From assembly GCA_035529855.1 (NCBI GenBank), contig DATKVX010000003.1:1-32432 (forward strand): a DNA stretch of 32,432 nucleotides, in the 5' to 3' direction. The notes under the pieces are model-generated. The model saw nothing but the letters and a program-made list of their open reading frames with translations. It did no database searches and was not told the origin of the DNA. This DNA is from a bacterium. Its GTDB lineage: Bacteria; RBG-13-66-14; B26-G2; WVWN01. The translations under genes and the position numbers were made by a program. This document shows positions 4,913 to 20,290 of this stretch, piece by piece; the stretch's first letter is position 1; each line of letters starts with the position of its first letter.

Positions 4913-5491
4913 TTGCCGGATAAAATCGTCGAAATCCGGTGGCACGGCCGCGGCGGCCAGGGCGTTAAAACCGCTGCGATGTTGTTCGCCGAGGCGGCGT
5001 ACGAGGGCGGTAAATACGTCCAAGGTTTTTCCGATTACGGGCCCGAGCGCTCGGGCGCGCCGATTCAAGGCTTTACTCGCCTCAGCGACGGCCGCATCTA
5101 CCTCCACAACTTCATCACGGAACCGGACGTAGTCGTAGTATTGGACCCATCCCTCTTGGGGACCGTCGCCGTGACCGAGGGGTTGAAAAAAGGCGGCAAA
5201 GTCCTAGTAAATTCTTCCCACGACCCCGCCGAGCTCGCCGCCCAATTAGGGGTAGACAAAGAGCAAGTGTTCGTCGTGGACGCCAAGAAAATCTCGCTCG
5301 AGACGATGGGTCGCGACATGCCCAACTCGCCGATGATGGGCGCCTTGGTAAAAGTCGTCGGCCTGGTCGAATTGCCCTGGGTCAACGAAACGTTCGAAAA
5401 GAAGTTCGGCGCGAAATCCGAGAAAATCGTGGCCGATAACGTCGCCGCGGTAAAGAGGGCGTACGACGAGGTGCGCGGCGCCGCCAGTTAA
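4913..5491 (+). CDS. porG: pyruvate:ferredoxin oxidoreductase, gamma subunit
   Basis: A 192-residue 2-oxoacid:ferredoxin oxidoreductase gamma subunit (POR_gamma domain over the full length). The hallmark WHGRGGQGVKTAA lies at residues 10-22 and SDYGPERSGAP at 40-50. The enzyme oxidatively decarboxylates pyruvate with CoA to acetyl-CoA and reduces ferredoxin; this subunit belongs to the soluble four-subunit form. It starts with TTG: GAGGTGAT (4900-4907) is 5 nt upstream and the TTG begins the conserved MPDKIVEIRWHGRGGQG, so no other start fits. It is first in the gene order gamma-delta-alpha-beta, as in Thermotoga and archaeal por loci, and has the structured leader described above. Substrate is most likely pyruvate given the alpha subunit; other 2-oxoacids are not excluded. 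Confidence 0.95.
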   Translation: MPDKIVEIRWHGRGGQGVKTAAMLFAEAAYEGGKYVQGFSDYGPERSGAPIQGFTRLSDGRIYLHNFITEPDVVVVLDPSLLGTVAVTEGLKKGGKVLVNSSHDPAELAAQLGVDKEQVFVVDAKKISLETMGRDMPNSPMMGALVKVVGLVELPWVNETFEKKFGAKSEKIVADNVAAVKRAYDEVRGAAS

Positions 5492-5511
5492 TAACCGGAG
5501 GCAACGTAAAG

Positions 5512-5799
5512 ATGGAGAAAAAGAAAGGCTGGAAAGAAGTACCGCTGGGCGGCTTGATCACGGAGGCCGGCAACGCCGACGAGTACGAGACCGGCTCGTG
5601 GCGAACGTTTAAGCCGGTATTGAATCCGGAAGCTTGTAACAACTGCCTTATTTGTTGGATTTTCTGCCCGGACACGTCGATCCGTATCGAGGACGAGAAA
5701 ATGGTCGGCTTCGATTACGTTCACTGTAAAGGTTGCGGCATTTGCGCCGCCGAGTGTCCGAAAAAAGCCATCGAGATGGTACTAGACGAACAGAAATAG
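5512..5799 (+). CDS. porD: pyruvate:ferredoxin oxidoreductase, delta (ferredoxin-like) subunit
   Basis: A 95-residue 2x[4Fe-4S] ferredoxin subunit that passes electrons from the catalytic beta subunit to free ferredoxin. Two classical motifs are present: C42-x2-C45-x2-C48-x3-C52-P and C72-x2-C75-x2-C78-x3-C82-P. The N-terminal 40 residues (ending TGSWRTFKPVLNPEAC) are typical of PorD. The ATG has GGAGG 10 nt upstream. Its TAG stop overlaps the ribosome site (AGGAG, 5798-5802) of the alpha subunit, so translation is probably coupled. Confidence 0.95.
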   Translation: MEKKKGWKEVPLGGLITEAGNADEYETGSWRTFKPVLNPEACNNCLICWIFCPDTSIRIEDEKMVGFDYVHCKGCGICAAECPKKAIEMVLDEQK

Positions 5800-5808
5800 G
5801 AGACCGCT

Positions 5809-7005
5809 GTGGGCAAAACACCCGTTCGACAAATAAAAATGCCGCTCACGGGCAACGACGCGAGCGCGTTCGCTATGAAACAGGTCAACCCCGACGTCGT
5901 AGCCGCTTACCCTATTACGCCGCAGACCGAACTTATGCAGACGTTCGCGCAATACGTCGCCGACGGCGACGTCGATACCGCGCTCATAACGGTCGAGAGC
6001 GAGCACTCCGCCATGAGCGCCTGCATCGGCGCCGCGGCCGCGGGCGCCCGCACCATGACGGCCACCTCGGCCAACGGCTTCGCGCTGATGTGGGAAGTCC
6101 TCTACATCGCCGCCTCGTTGCGCCTCCCCATCACCATGGCGGTCGTGAACCGCGCCCTGTCCGGGCCCATCAACATCCACTGCGACCACTCCGACTCCAT
6201 GGGCGGCCGGGACGCGGGTTGGATACAAATATACGCCGAAAACCCGCAAGAGGCGTACGACCTGTGGCTTATCGGCATAAAGGCCGCGGAGAACCACGAC
6301 GTCCTTCTGCCGGCGATGGTTATGTACGACGGCTTCATCATTAGCCACACCATGGAAGTCGTGGAGACGCTCACCGAAGACGTGATCAGGGATTACATCG
6401 GCCCCTACAAACCGGCGTACGCCTTGCTCCTGGACGAGAAACCGTTCACCGTCGGGCCGTTGGACTTCCACGATTATTACTTCGAGCACAAGCGCCAGGA
6501 GCTCGAGGGTATGGAACAGGCGCCCGCGGCGCTCGCCGCCGCCGCGGCCGAGTACGAAAAGCTCTCCGGCCGCCGCTACGGCCCGGTCGAAACGTACCGA
6601 GCCGACGACGCCGACGTCATAATGGTGGCGCTCGGGTCCACCGCCGGGACGGCGCGCTACGTCGTGGACGTACTGCGCGAGCAGGGCAAATCCGTCGGCC
6701 TTATGAAGCTGAGGACCTTCCGCCCGTTCCCCCACCGCGAAGTCGCCGACGCCCTCGGCAAGACGAAATGCGTCGTGGTGTGCGACCGCGTCGCGTCGTT
6801 CGGCGCGTTCGGCTCGCCCACTTTTATGGAGGTGCGGAGCGCGCTCTACGAGGTCCCCGATAGGCCGTTGGCCATAAACTACATCTACGGCCTCGGCGGC
6901 CGCGACACCGGCCCCGACCTCCTCGAGCAAGCGTTTGAAGAGGGCCTCCGCGTAGCCCAAACCGGCAAAATCGAACAGCACGTGGGCTACCTCGGCGTAC
7001 GTTAA
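5809..7005 (+). CDS. porA: pyruvate:ferredoxin oxidoreductase, alpha subunit
   Basis: A 398-residue alpha subunit with the pyrimidine-binding domain at the N terminus (YPITPQT at 34-40 and the catalytic glutamate region TVESEHSAMSA from 61) and the domain II transketolase-like C-terminal half (VALGSTAGTARYVVDVLRE, then LMKLRTFRPFP). PINIHCDHSDSMGGRDAGW and IQIYAENPQEAYD resemble pyruvate-type PorA sequences. It begins with GTG: TAGGAGA lies 5 nt upstream and overlaps the porD stop codon. A 399-residue open frame on the opposite strand (5782-6981) is a GC-rich shadow. Confidence 0.95.
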   Translation: MGKTPVRQIKMPLTGNDASAFAMKQVNPDVVAAYPITPQTELMQTFAQYVADGDVDTALITVESEHSAMSACIGAAAAGARTMTATSANGFALMWEVLYIAASLRLPITMAVVNRALSGPINIHCDHSDSMGGRDAGWIQIYAENPQEAYDLWLIGIKAAENHDVLLPAMVMYDGFIISHTMEVVETLTEDVIRDYIGPYKPAYALLLDEKPFTVGPLDFHDYYFEHKRQELEGMEQAPAALAAAAAEYEKLSGRRYGPVETYRADDADVIMVALGSTAGTARYVVDVLREQGKSVGLMKLRTFRPFPHREVADALGKTKCVVVCDRVASFGAFGSPTFMEVRSALYEVPDRPLAINYIYGLGGRDTGPDLLEQAFEEGLRVAQTGKIEQHVGYLGVR

Positions 7006-7039
7006 GGGACTGCAGTCGGAACTCTTAAGGAGTGTATAG

Positions 7040-8002
7040 ATGACTACGCTTAAGGAATTATCTCACCGCGAAGAACGCTTTACCGGCGGCCACCGGCTGT
7101 GCGCGGGCTGCGGCGCCGCCATCGTCGCCCGGCAAGTCCTGCTCGCCGCCGACGGGCCGGTAGTAATCGGCAACGCCACCGGCTGCCTGGAAGTCGCGAC
7201 GACCCTTTATCCGTACTCGTCGTGGAAAGTCCCCTGGATCCACAACGCGTTCGAAAACGTCGCCGCGACTATTTCGGGCGTGGAGACGGCCTACCGCGTA
7301 TTCAAACAACAAGGCAAGCTGGCCAAGGATTTCCATTTCGTCGCTTTCGGCGGTGACGGCGGCACGTACGATATTGGCCTGCAGGCGTTATCGGGTGCGC
7401 TCGAGCGCGGCCATAAGATGCTCTACGTCTGCTACGACAACCAGGCCTACATGAACACCGGCATTCAGCGCTCCGGCGCCACGCCCAAGGGCGCTTCTAC
7501 CACCACCGCCCCGCACGGTAAATTAATCCCGGGTAAAATCCAACGCCGTAAAGACCTCACCGCCATCGTCGCGGCGCACCACATCCCGTACGCGGCGCAG
7601 GCCGCGCCCCACGCCTTCATGGACCTGGTGCGTAAGGTCGAGAAAGCGCTCGCCGCCGACGGCCCCTCCTTCATCAACGTCCTCTCGCCCTGCCATCGCG
7701 GTTGGCGCCACGCCCCCGAGGAAACGCTCGAGGTAACCCGCATCGCCGCCAACACCTGCTTCTGGCCGCTTTACGAAATAGTCGACGACCAGTGGAAGCT
7801 TACCTATAAACCCCGGAAAAAATTGCCCGTCGAGGATTGGTTGAAGTTCCAGGGCCGTTTCAAGCACCTTTTCGACGACGGCGGCCACCCCAAGCTCGTC
7901 GCCGAGATCCAGGCCGACGTCGACCGCGACTGGGAGGACCTCCTCATACGCTGCGGCGAGTTGCCGCCGCGCGAGTGCCGCGACGAAAAGGCGAAGGAAT
8001 AG
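7040..8002 (+). CDS. porB: pyruvate:ferredoxin oxidoreductase, beta subunit
   Basis: A 320-residue thiamine-diphosphate-binding subunit. Residues seen: proximal cluster cysteines C21-x2-C24, C49 in NATGCLEVA, and C218 in LSPCHRGW; the ThDP/Mg motif GDGGTYDIG at 105-113 with the downstream N134 in CYDNQAYMNTG. Length and order are typical. AAGGAGTG lies 5 nt before the ATG. A strong terminator follows at 8029-8054, ending the por operon. Confidence 0.96.
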   Translation: MTTLKELSHREERFTGGHRLCAGCGAAIVARQVLLAADGPVVIGNATGCLEVATTLYPYSSWKVPWIHNAFENVAATISGVETAYRVFKQQGKLAKDFHFVAFGGDGGTYDIGLQALSGALERGHKMLYVCYDNQAYMNTGIQRSGATPKGASTTTAPHGKLIPGKIQRRKDLTAIVAAHHIPYAAQAAPHAFMDLVRKVEKALAADGPSFINVLSPCHRGWRHAPEETLEVTRIAANTCFWPLYEIVDDQWKLTYKPRKKLPVEDWLKFQGRFKHLFDDGGHPKLVAEIQADVDRDWEDLLIRCGELPPRECRDEKAKE

Positions 8003-17253: not shown

Positions 17254-17353
17254 ATAAGTTGACTTATTTAGTATAGTATGCCATTATATAACATTGTATG
17301 ACTTTATCCACCCCGCGCTAACACCTGTTAAACCAACAATATAACTAAATAAG
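17254..17353 (+). promoter_or_regulatory. AT-rich control region with inverted repeats before the DUF362 gene
   Basis: ATAAGT-tg-ACTTAT (17254-17267) is an inverted repeat overlapping a -35-like TTGACT (17259-17264); a weak -10 CATTAT is at 17282-17287 (17-bp spacer). Separately, CTTATTTAGT (17263-17272) is the exact reverse complement of ACTAAATAAG (17344-17353), the latter running into the AAGGGGA ribosome site (17351-17357). This looks like operator-type sequence; the regulator is unknown. Confidence 0.45.
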
Positions 17354-17363
17354 GGGATAGTAT

Positions 17364-18287
17364 ATGGGGATAAATAGACGCGAATTCTTCCGGGATTTGG
17401 GGCTCGCCGCCGGCGCCGCGGCCCTTTTAAGCCGCGAAGCGTTCGGGGCGGACGAGGCCGTGTGGCCGTACGCCCCCCTAAAAACCGCCGACGTTATAGT
17501 CTGCGAGGGCACGGCCTACAAGACGCTACTGACCCGTGCCTTCGATAAACTGGGCGGCCTGAAGAAATATATCAAGGGCGGCGACAGCGTACTGGTCAAA
17601 CCGAACATCGCCTGGGACCGCGCCCCCGAGTACGGCGCCACCACCAACCCGTTCGTCGTCGCGGCGTTGGTCGAGCTCAGCCTTGCCGCCGGCGCGGGCG
17701 AGGTTAAGGTCTACGACAACACGTGCGCCAACTGCCGCCGCAGCTACGACTCGAGCGGCATCGCCGACGCGGCCCGCGACGCCGGCGCGAAAGTCTCGTA
17801 CGTCGACACCGCGCTGGGAAAAACCGTAAATATCCCGAACGGCGTCGCCGTAAAAAAAGCCGAGGTCTACGCCGACGTCCTGGACACGGACGTAATAATC
17901 AACGTCCCGATTGCCAAAGACCACTCCCTCTCCCGCCTCACCCTCGGGATGAAAAACCTGTTGGGGATACTGGTCGAGAACCGCGGCCGCTGGCACCAGC
18001 GCATAAACCAAAAGCTCGTCGACCTGGCCCAAGTGGTAACGCCGACGCTTACCGTCATCGACGCCACGCGCATTATGACCGCCAACGGCCCAACCGGCGG
18101 CGAATTAGGTTACGTGAAGCGCCTTGACAAGCTCATCGTAACGACGGACGTGACCGCCGCCGACGCCTACGCTACCACCCTCTTCGGCCTCGAGCCCACG
18201 GACCTCGGCGTCGTTAAAGAAGCCCGCAAGCGGGACTTCGGCACCGCGGACGTCGAGCGTATGAACGTCTCCAAGGTCACGGCCTAA
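17364..18287 (+). CDS. Tat-exported DUF362 protein
   Basis: A 307-residue protein with a twin-arginine signal (NRREFFRDLGLAAGAAALL, about 4-22), so it is exported folded and probably carries a cofactor. The mature part matches the DUF362 domain: VLVKPNIAWD, GATTNPFVVAALVELSLAAGAGEVKVYDN, DVIINVPIAKDHSLSRLTLGMKNLLGI, and a C-terminal TTDVTAADAYATTLFG. A short Cys pair (CANC) is present near residue 123, but there is no ferredoxin domain. The next gene starts 2 nt after its stop and encodes a polyferredoxin, so the two very likely form a redox unit. The reaction is unknown. AAGGGGA lies 6 nt before the ATG. Confidence 0.88.
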   Translation: MGINRREFFRDLGLAAGAAALLSREAFGADEAVWPYAPLKTADVIVCEGTAYKTLLTRAFDKLGGLKKYIKGGDSVLVKPNIAWDRAPEYGATTNPFVVAALVELSLAAGAGEVKVYDNTCANCRRSYDSSGIADAARDAGAKVSYVDTALGKTVNIPNGVAVKKAEVYADVLDTDVIINVPIAKDHSLSRLTLGMKNLLGILVENRGRWHQRINQKLVDLAQVVTPTLTVIDATRIMTANGPTGGELGYVKRLDKLIVTTDVTAADAYATTLFGLEPTDLGVVKEARKRDFGTADVERMNVSKVTA

Positions 18288-18289
18288 AT

Positions 18290-19849
18290 ATGCCTCCGGG
18301 CGGTTGGGAATGGTTCCGCCGATTGAGCCAGGTTGCGTTCTTCGGCGCGGCGTGCGTTTTAATCGTCGCGACGAACTACCCCCTCGAAGCTGACCTCCCG
18401 TACGACATAATTCCCCGCTTCTCGCCGCTTCTGGCGGCAACGGCTATGGCCGCGAGCCGCGCGGTCATAACGGCCTTCTGGCCCGCGCTCATAGTCGTGG
18501 CGTTGACGCTGCTGCTCGGCCGGGCCTTCTGCGGTTGGGTTTGCCCGGTGGGCGCGCTGCTCGACGCCGGCGACTTCGTCATCGCCAAAGTATTTCGCAA
18601 ACGCCGGCGCGAGGGCGAAAAAGTCAGCCACCGACGGTGGCGGATCCTCCTGCTCGTAGCGCTGGTGGTATTCGCCGCGTTCGGCATCCCGCTCGCCGGT
18701 TGGTTTGACCCGCTCGCGCTATTCCCCCGCACCCTCGCGACGTCGATAATACCGTACGCCTCCATCGGCCTCGACAAGCTCACGTTACTCTTGTACGACG
18801 TCCCGAGATTGGAATCGTTCGCGAGCGCCGTACGGCAACGCGTCGTCGCCGAAAACGTCACGCTCTTCCCAGGGCACATCGTCGTCGCCGCGGTCTTGGC
18901 GGGATTGATACTCCTCGGCTTCGTACGTCGCCGCTTCTACTGCCGGTACGTCTGCCCGACGGGCGCGCTGCTTAGCGTCGTCGGTTGGGCTTCGCCGTTC
19001 GGCCGTCGCGTCGCCGGCGCCGAATGTACCGAATGCAAGAGGTGCCGTAATGTATGCCGGATGGGCGCCATCGGCGGCCGCGGCGAGGCCACCGCCCAGG
19101 CCGAATGCAACCTCTGCATGGATTGCCTGGCCGCTTGCCGGCGGGACGCGACTTCCTTCGGCTTCGGCCGCGCGAGGCCCCCCGAAAACCCTACGACGTG
19201 GGCGCCCGCCGTTACGCGGCGCGGTTTTCTCGTAAGCGCCGGCGCGAGCCTGGTCGCCGCGCCCGCGGTGCTCGTAACCGACGGCCGGGTCCAGAGCGAC
19301 CTGTTCCTCATACGGCCTCCCGGCGCCCAGGAGAAGAGCGAATTCCTCGCGCGCTGCGTGCGGTGCGGCGAGTGCATAAGGGTTTGCCTTACGCAAGGGC
19401 TGGCGCCGGTTCACTTCGAAGCGGGGCTGACGGGCCTTTGGACGCCGCGGCTCGTACCCCGCAAGGGGTACTGCGAGTACCTGTGCACGCTGTGCACGCA
19501 AGTATGCCCCACCGACGCCATAAAGACGTTGACGGAAGAACAGAAGAAAAAGGAAATAATCGGCCTCGCCGTCGTTGACCGTACGCGCTGTCTCCCCTGG
19601 GTCGAGGACGAAGACTGCAACGTGTGCGAGGAGATGTGCCCCACCTCGCCTAAGGCGATCGAACTACGAGGTCGGGGTCGTTTGAAGCCGCACGTGATCG
19701 CCGATAAATGCGTAGGCTGCGGCATCTGCGAGTACGCCTGCCCCGTAGAGGGCGACGCCGCGATCGTCGTCGTAGGCGACCGCGACCGCGTCTACTTCAC
19801 AAACGACGGAGGAGGCGGCCGGCACTACCGCGGCGGCCGGGGCGGTTAA
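18290..19849 (+). CDS. NapH/NapG-like fused polyferredoxin membrane protein
   Basis: A 519-residue fusion. The N-terminal half is NapH-like: membrane segments near 13-28, 60-78, 118-138 and 196-212, with the paired motifs FCGWVCPVGALLD (80-92) and YCRYVCPTGALLS (217-229). Ferredoxin motifs follow at C246-C256 and C273-C283. A Tat-like segment (RRGFLVSAGASLVAAPAVL, 310-328) then leads into a NapG-like part with four more cluster motifs: C356-C366, C395-C406, C434-C450 and C474-C484. The tail is Gly/Arg-rich. Family knowledge says NapH takes electrons from quinol and NapG carries them in the periplasm; here the partner is probably the DUF362 protein encoded immediately upstream. The topology of the internal Tat-like segment is unclear. 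Confidence 0.9.
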   Translation: MPPGGWEWFRRLSQVAFFGAACVLIVATNYPLEADLPYDIIPRFSPLLAATAMAASRAVITAFWPALIVVALTLLLGRAFCGWVCPVGALLDAGDFVIAKVFRKRRREGEKVSHRRWRILLLVALVVFAAFGIPLAGWFDPLALFPRTLATSIIPYASIGLDKLTLLLYDVPRLESFASAVRQRVVAENVTLFPGHIVVAAVLAGLILLGFVRRRFYCRYVCPTGALLSVVGWASPFGRRVAGAECTECKRCRNVCRMGAIGGRGEATAQAECNLCMDCLAACRRDATSFGFGRARPPENPTTWAPAVTRRGFLVSAGASLVAAPAVLVTDGRVQSDLFLIRPPGAQEKSEFLARCVRCGECIRVCLTQGLAPVHFEAGLTGLWTPRLVPRKGYCEYLCTLCTQVCPTDAIKTLTEEQKKKEIIGLAVVDRTRCLPWVEDEDCNVCEEMCPTSPKAIELRGRGRLKPHVIADKCVGCGICEYACPVEGDAAIVVVGDRDRVYFTNDGGGGRHYRGGRGG

Positions 19850-19875
19850 CCCGGCGTAACCACTGTCGGGGTTTT
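19850..19875 (+). terminator. weak terminator-like hairpin
   Basis: CCCGGC (19850-19855) can pair with GTCGGG (19865-19870), including one G-T pair, followed by GTTTT. The loop is 9 nt and the stem short, so it is marginal. Confidence 0.3.
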
Positions 19876-19891
19876 GAAGGGTCAGGTTAAA

Positions 19892-20290
19892 ATGGGAACG
19901 GAGACGAAGAACGGCGACACCGCCAGGTTCGTCGTGCAGGAGCACGACGCCAGCACCCATCACTACGATTTCCGGCTGGAGATGGACGGCGTCCTGAAGT
20001 CCTGGGCCGTGCCGAAGGGCATCTCAACCAAACCGGGCGAAAGGCGCCTCGCCGTCCAGGTCGAAGACCACGACGTCGACTACATCGGCTTCGAGGGCGA
20101 AATCGAGGAGGGGGTTTACGGCGCGGGGACCGTTTCGATATGGGACCGGGGCCGGTACGACCTCGTGGACCGCAAGGATAAAAAATTGGTCTTCAACTTA
20201 CATGGGGAGAAACTAAAAGGCTCGTTCGTCTTGGTTCACACGAAAGAAAAGCTTTGGCTCATAATGAAGATGAAGAAAGAAACCGCCTGA
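19892..20290 (+). CDS. stand-alone LigD-type 3'-phosphoesterase domain protein
   Basis: A 132-residue protein consisting only of the LigD PE domain, which removes 3'-phosphate and 3'-ribonucleotides from DNA ends before ligation. The active-site block FVVQEHDASTHHYDFRLEMDG is intact, with H18, H24, D26 and R28 at the positions expected for metal and phosphate binding, followed by SWAVPKGISTKPGERRLA and DHDVDYIGFEGEIEEGVYGAG. No ligase, polymerase domain or Ku gene is nearby. I start at ATG 19892 (CAGG 5 nt upstream); a TTG at 19874 would add six residues. It ends 6 bp from the convergent gatB stop with no terminator between. Confidence 0.92.
   Translation: MGTETKNGDTARFVVQEHDASTHHYDFRLEMDGVLKSWAVPKGISTKPGERRLAVQVEDHDVDYIGFEGEIEEGVYGAGTVSIWDRGRYDLVDRKDKKLVFNLHGEKLKGSFVLVHTKEKLWLIMKMKKETA

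Follow-up and report, generated by a model that had tools for sequence, protein, structure and literature searches.

A conserved gene pair of a Tat-type DUF362 protein with a predicted LarA-like fold and a NapH-NapG fusion polyferredoxin

The gene pair and its recurrence

The window analyzed here is a stretch of bacterial DNA of 32,432 nucleotides, contig DATKVX010000003.1 of assembly GCA_035529855.1. It encodes a DUF362 protein with a signal of the twin-arginine translocation (Tat) type and, directly downstream, a single polypeptide that joins a NapH-like membrane half to a NapG-like ferredoxin half, referred to below as the fusion. In the list of open reading frames, the two genes lie on the same strand and are separated by two nucleotides. 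We conclude from sequence comparisons that the two genes very probably form one redox machine, because they occur side by side in many bacteria that avoid oxygen and because their products have evolved in step. An earlier sequence-only reading of the window had proposed the adjacency and spacing of the two genes, a Tat-type N-terminus of the DUF362 protein, and a Tat-like RRGF motif at residue 310 in the middle of the fusion, and all three hold. The open reading frames are arranged as it described; the first product begins with MGINRREFF and matches the DUF362 model PF04015 over residues 76-271 (161.2 bits, gathering cut-off 24); and the twin arginine of the second occupies residues 310-311, just ahead of a hydrophobic stretch at residues 311-332. 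The same reading had assigned six cluster motifs to the NapG-like part. Six four-cysteine motifs do exist in the fusion; their division is two in the NapH-like and four in the NapG-like half.

A collection of species genomes was scanned with the fusion as the seed. A DUF362 sequence lies directly upstream of the fusion at all 22 loci recovered, although it is masked by N in L006 and decayed to a fragment in L022. The loci span Coatesbacteria, Zixiibacteriota, Desulfobacterota-type groups, Acidobacteria, and Anaerolineales. The co-occurrence on which the sequence-only reading depended is thereby borne out in several phyla, and adjacency that recurs so widely is far beyond chance. Three close relatives of the window genus (L004, L005, L006) are labelled as two Zixiibacteriota and one Coatesbacteria. 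One partial match was found in viral contigs.

The phylum of a Desulfotignum genome was sampled with 247 Desulfobacterota genomes, of which 130 hold the fusion (E <= 1e-40) and 138 hold, among the matches listed, DUF362 (E <= 1e-30). Removal of 27 of the 139 fusion hits that did not span the query (start > 66 or end < 485) left 112 near-full fusions. A DUF362 among the matches listed is positioned on the same strand within 600 nucleotides of 91 of them. The other 21 fusions were looked at again: four are adjacent to a DUF362 gene detected with a wider query set (L145-L148), two have partial DUF362 sequences at the ends of contigs (L047, L157), five are linked to it across a gap of about 0.6-2.4 kb, and in one case both genes are at contig ends, where linkage is undecidable. 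DUF362 is then linked within about 2.5 kb to 102 of the 112 fusions; at a few loci, unrelated genes intervene. For the pair set of this second look, 17 loci were excluded beforehand (duplicates, cytoplasmic or LarA/LarC loci), and nine gave no pair. Eleven DUF362 matches came without a listed fusion; seven of these do have a fusion downstream, three are cytoplasmic forms in which no Tat signal was seen, and one is an exported orphan. Fusions were also found in 59 of 199 genomes sampled from the phylum of an Acidobacteriota genome, and DUF362 is adjacent in 28 of the best 30 of the 60 fusion hits there. Loci L067-L073 form a second class of the pair, with longer membrane halves and the DUF362 motif KDHHRSGAS...KNWYG. 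Some genomes hold both classes.

The tree distances of the two proteins were compared in 64 of 68 pairs, after the removal of pairs with a DUF362 protein shorter than 251 residues or a fusion shorter than 451 residues. The distances correlate with r = 0.85, a value that none of 999 shuffles attains. Because a common history of the species could by itself give such a correlation, the matching of paralogues is the better test. Eight genomes hold two paralogous pairs, and both proteins match up alike in 26 of 28 between-genome comparisons. The fusion and the DUF362 domain are themselves known; a conserved, coevolving pair of the fusion with a LarA-like partner was not found described in the literature searched.

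The DUF362 protein and its LarA-like fold

Residues R5, R6, and F8 of the DUF362 signal are invariant among 17 homologues. A structure model built from the 17 sequences has a predicted local distance difference test score (pLDDT) of 87.9 and a predicted template modelling score (pTM) of 0.83. The twelve best fold matches of the model in the PDB have Z scores of 15.7-18.3 over about 205 residues, whereas the next, unrelated folds reach 5.8. Eleven of the twelve entries are titled as LarA-type proteins or malate racemase, and the remaining one is an unnamed protein from T. maritima (4nar). Judged from the model, the DUF362 protein has the fold of the LarA N-terminal domain. The match ends at LarA residue ~259-286 of 393-480, and the DUF362 protein, a single domain of 307 residues, is without the second LarA domain. 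DUF362 and DUF2088, the domain of LarA, belong to one Pfam clan (PMC11770544).

In LarA, the nickel-pincer nucleotide is anchored by Lys184 and His200 and its phosphate is bound by Arg75, and His108 and His174 perform acid-base catalysis (PMC11770544, PMC9283937). A profile alignment of 67 DUF362 sequences with LarA, calculated using hhalign, places H187 on His174 and, with no gap, K197 on Lys184, a result that is weak alone. The corresponding K-x-H-9-K motif occurs in 67 of 67 DUF362 sequences, all of which have a further histidine 13-15 residues after the position of K197. No fixed histidine was found in the 67 sequences at the place expected for His108. The lysine and one catalytic histidine of the LarA active site are thus aligned, the cofactor histidine is matched by spacing only, and the first catalytic histidine is not fixed. 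LarA homologues with one catalytic histidine exist, and His174 is the one replaced in them (PMC12611868). Comparison of DUF362 with a single LarA sequence or with small profiles in hhalign gave nothing useful. With the 67 sequences, the best local match is the His/Lys segment (P 0.015), which reaches an E value of 1e-4 only with an added correlation term. A sequence search of the PDB with DUF362 returned weak, unrelated matches only. Because the link by sequence is weak, it is the fold comparison that carries the relationship to LarA.

No conserved cysteine is present in the alignments of 17 and 67 DUF362 homologues, and hence DUF362 itself would not bind an iron-sulfur (Fe-S) cluster via conserved cysteines. 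The window genome encodes two other DUF362 proteins (L002, L003), which carry their own C-terminal two-cluster ferredoxin domain. These cytoplasmic proteins share the K-x-H-9-K motif and the tie to 4Fe-4S clusters with the exported DUF362, but their own chain bears the clusters, and a Tat signal was not seen in them. The exported DUF362 resembles the LarA superfamily (Pfam clan CL0471) in its N-terminal domain fold and in a His/Lys pair at the same spacing. Unlike LarA, it is exported, consists of a single domain, is paired with a redox protein, has no fixed counterpart of His108, and occurs in several hosts in which cofactor genes are missing. We found no paper on DUF362 together with NapH, or on the function of DUF362, in the literature searched, which was mostly without subscription papers.

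The fusion polyferredoxin and its predicted topology

The NapH-like half of the fusion matches NapH/MauN models and, with a weak score, a NosR model; the NapG-like half matches NapG models. All matches are below the curated cut-offs of NCBIfam (103.2 against 269 bits for NapG, 87 against 234 bits for NapH), so that the equivalog thresholds are not reached. The fusion is similar to the NapGH quinol dehydrogenase of E. coli and Wolinella in that both halves are scored by NapH/NapG models and the cluster layout is alike. In contrast to NapGH, it is one polypeptide, scores far below the cut-offs, and has DUF362 as a partner instead of a NapA-type reductase.

The four-cysteine motifs are located at C246-C256 and C273-C283 in the NapH-like half, and at C356-C366, C395-C406, C434-C450, and C474-C484 in the NapG-like half. 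Two additional CX3CP motifs are formed by C81/C85 and C218/C222. All 28 motif cysteines and R310-R311 are invariant in 17 aligned homologues. Since the two CX3CP motifs add to the six four-cysteine motifs, seven Fe-S clusters are likely in the window fusion, judging from these motifs, which is the same number as predicted for its relative from MLMS-1.

The protein of the delta-proteobacterium MLMS-1 (Q1NSB0) is a NapH-NapG fusion for which three cytoplasmic and four external clusters were predicted, and reporter tests show Tat-dependent export of the part following its fifth membrane segment (Tooke et al. 2017, eLife, PMC5449189). Homologues were noted in several phyla, and the fusion family and its topology, established by the general secretory (Sec) and then the Tat machinery, are thus already published. 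The study deals with biogenesis only, and a term search of the text available from it did not return DUF362. The window fusion is built as the polytopic, Sec/Tat dual-inserted polyferredoxins are: it has a membrane half with CX3CP motifs, cytoplasmic-type clusters, and a four-cluster NapG-like half, so that clusters would lie on both faces of the membrane. As in its relatives, the twin arginine directly precedes the fifth hydrophobic segment (311-332). TatC is present in exactly those seven of 14 genomes of the window phylum that hold the fusion; this match may reflect kinship, because the seven genomes without the fusion all belong to one family. The extracytoplasmic position of the C-terminal ferredoxin half, which the sequence-only reading had suggested, is supported by the reporter fusions of the MLMS-1 protein, the invariant arginines, and, with the reservation about kinship, the co-occurrence of TatC.

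The features of the two genes are collected in Table 1. The genes flanking the pair are unrelated to it: a deaminase gene is located upstream, and genes for a LigD-type phosphoesterase and GatB downstream. The product of the gene just 3' of the fusion (19874-20290) is a stand-alone LigD 3'-phosphoesterase domain protein. Positions 4913-8002 of the window hold a gene set for pyruvate:ferredoxin oxidoreductase with separate subunits. Elsewhere in the window's bacterial genome (L132, G000:C110:14500-24500), genes of archaeal lipid type stand together, with scores mostly below the NCBI cut-offs; they are geranylgeranylglyceryl-phosphate transferase-like, geranylgeranyl reductase, and archaetidylinositol-phosphate synthase-like.

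Table 1 Features of the DUF362-fusion locus, with positions in the window
Feature	Position	Strand	Basis
Shine-Dalgarno-like AAGGGG ahead of the DUF362 start	17351..17356	+	read in the sequence
Tat-type DUF362 protein, 307 residues	17364..18287	+	open reading frame; PF04015, 161 bits; LarA-like fold in the model
Tat-type signal region of DUF362 (NRREFF...), residues 1-28	17364..17447	+	sequence; R5/R6/F8 invariant in 17 homologues
DUF362 H187 codon, profile-aligned with the LarA catalytic histidine (His174, L. plantarum)	17922..17924	+	invariant in 67/67; hhalign
DUF362 K197 codon, profile-aligned with the LarA cofactor-anchoring lysine (Lys184)	17952..17954	+	invariant in 67/67; hhalign
DUF362 H211 codon, proposed counterpart of the nickel-ligating His200 of LarA	17994..17996	+	spacing; equivalence inferred
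NapH-NapG fusion polyferredoxin, 519 residues	18290..19849	+	open reading frame; NapH/NapG models on the two halves
NapH-like half: hydrophobic regions, CX3CP at C81 and C218, four-cysteine motifs at C246 and C273	18290..19147	+	models, motifs
Internal Tat motif TRRGF and fifth hydrophobic segment, residues 309-332	19214..19285	+	R310/R311 invariant in 17 homologues
NapG-like half, four 4Fe-4S motifs at C356/C395/C434/C474	19286..19846	+	models, motifs, conservation

A possible electron path and its alternatives

We lean, if only slightly, towards one exported redox module in which electrons pass from quinol through the clusters of the fusion to the Tat-exported DUF362 protein and on to a small molecule outside the cytoplasm. 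The NapH-like half would reside in the membrane, with its clusters on the cytoplasmic side after Sec-then-Tat insertion, and the NapG-like half would be moved across by Tat at RR310, placing four clusters outside. The fusion would take up electrons, most likely from menaquinol, and deliver them to DUF362. The site around K197, H187, and H211 in DUF362 would probably hold a cofactor or substrate of organic or metal-organic nature and face the ferredoxin half, and the protein would reduce the external molecule.

Two loci hold a different exported Fe-S oxidoreductase in the place of DUF362. In L149 (G111:C1:1758500-1763500), the gene directly ahead of a distant NapH-NapG fusion encodes an aldo/keto reductase of Tat type that includes a ferredoxin domain. 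In L120, a Tat-type relative of QueG and reductive dehalogenases (160-1236) directly precedes a NapH-NapG fusion. Such replacements are expected if the fusion supplies electrons and DUF362 is an oxidoreductase. They favor the path from quinol through the clusters and DUF362 to an external substrate; its main competitor is flow in the opposite direction. In L149, larB and larC are positioned upstream of the aldo/keto reductase and the fusion on the same strand. In five genomes (L056, L057, L064, L155, L156) the fusion follows genes that we take to be queE-queC-like, and DUF362 is elsewhere in the genome. The ferredoxin partner is part of the same chain in the L002 and L003 proteins, and a separate membrane-bound protein for the exported DUF362. 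Menaquinone is a plausible donor because one of three UbiA-family copies in the window genome is similar to MenA-type prenyltransferases; the UbiA family as such is present in 14 of 14 genomes of the window phylum and is uninformative about the quinone.

Several observations weigh against this module. MenA alone does not prove a quinone, and the literature searched yielded no biochemical data for any DUF362 protein. No third gene is conserved around the pair at the 22 loci, so that the neighborhoods point to no pathway. DUF362 is elsewhere in the genome for eight of the 112 near-full fusions and missing for one, and therefore linkage in an operon is not strictly needed; two of the best 30 Acidobacteriota fusion loci are likewise without an adjacent DUF362. 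The structure model of the fusion is poor (pLDDT 54), and its PDB matches are meaningless. According to the rule of Tooke et al., the fifth segment is less hydrophobic than the first and is followed by positive charges (PMC5449189). The rule was not reproduced here: on the Kyte-Doolittle scale, a crude measure, the fifth segment is the less hydrophobic one in eight of 17 homologues. The net charge after it is positive in 13 of the 17 and zero in the window fusion.

The same module could run in reverse, with DUF362 oxidizing an extracytoplasmic substrate, for example a hydroxy acid, and electrons passing inward to quinone or cytoplasmic ferredoxin. A two-sided wire of clusters could carry electrons either way. 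LarA chemistry proceeds via an oxidized keto acid, with the cofactor carrying a hydride (PMC11770544); the fold and the His/Lys motif of DUF362 match those of LarA, and a LarA-like fold would suit a hydroxy acid. However, NapGH relatives are described as quinol dehydrogenases in nitrate respiration (PMC5449189), and the L120 protein, one of the two replacement partners, is similar to QueG and reductive dehalogenases, enzymes that act as reductases. We regard the reverse direction as rather unlikely.

Less probable still is a maturation or repair system, in which the fusion and DUF362 would serve other exported proteins by reduction, repair, or loading of a cofactor. MauM/MauN- or NosR-like proteins have roles of this type, and the NapH-like half gives a match to the NapH/MauN model and a weak one to the NosR model. 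The surroundings of the pair bear on the idea in two ways: no pathway genes are constantly beside it, which would suit a maturation system, yet no client gene is constantly beside it either, as far as neighborhoods tell, no genome-wide search for clients having been made.

The similarity to LarA raises the question of whether DUF362 is an exported nickel-pincer-nucleotide enzyme that holds the cofactor made by LarB, LarE, and LarC on K197 and H211 as LarA does. The LarA-like fold, the alignment of H187 and K197 with His174 and Lys184, and the histidine 13-15 residues further on are in line with such an enzyme, as are the one fusion locus beside larB and larC (L149) and the window genome, which has LarA, LarC, and a LarE match over the cut-off. 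Among pair-bearing genomes, larC was found in 17 of 25, in addition to the window genome, and larE over the cut-off in 19 of 26. LarC occurs in 209 of the 247 genomes of the Desulfobacterota sample, and its presence is therefore uninformative. Both larC and larE are missing over the cut-off in six of 26 pair-bearing genomes, including one rated 100% complete and all three Acidobacteriota. Because of these six genomes, the cofactor is not generally needed, and it was rejected as a general requirement; the exported DUF362 probably does not use it in general. The lack of the second LarA domain and of a histidine at the place expected for His108 also speaks against a nickel-pincer enzyme, which we consider very unlikely. 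That DUF362 and the fusion are mere neighbors acting separately deserves hardly any credence: the distant DUF362 genes of eight near-full fusions and the unrelated genes between the two in a few loci would fit it, but adjacency across several phyla and the matched inheritance of paralogous pairs strongly disfavor it.

Starting from the module that carries electrons from quinol to DUF362, we speculate further, as an extension that is on balance doubtful, that DUF362 is the founding member of a class of exported oxidoreductases with the LarA fold, which carry out net redox chemistry rather than racemization. The external ferredoxin half would replace the second LarA domain over the active site and feed electrons to a cofactor held by K197 and H211, which need not be the nickel-pincer nucleotide. 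About half of the sampled Desulfobacterota would then have DUF362 as a new terminal enzyme of respiration linked to quinol.

Many hosts of the fusion, with titles such as Desulfobacula and Desulfotignum, are likely sulfate reducers. Should the pair indeed be a terminus of respiration, metabolic models lack a sink or source of electrons that is common in anaerobic bacteria. The analysis also makes DUF362, a widespread domain, testable: the partner of its exported form is defined, a pocket like that of LarA is predicted, and the residues of interest are few.

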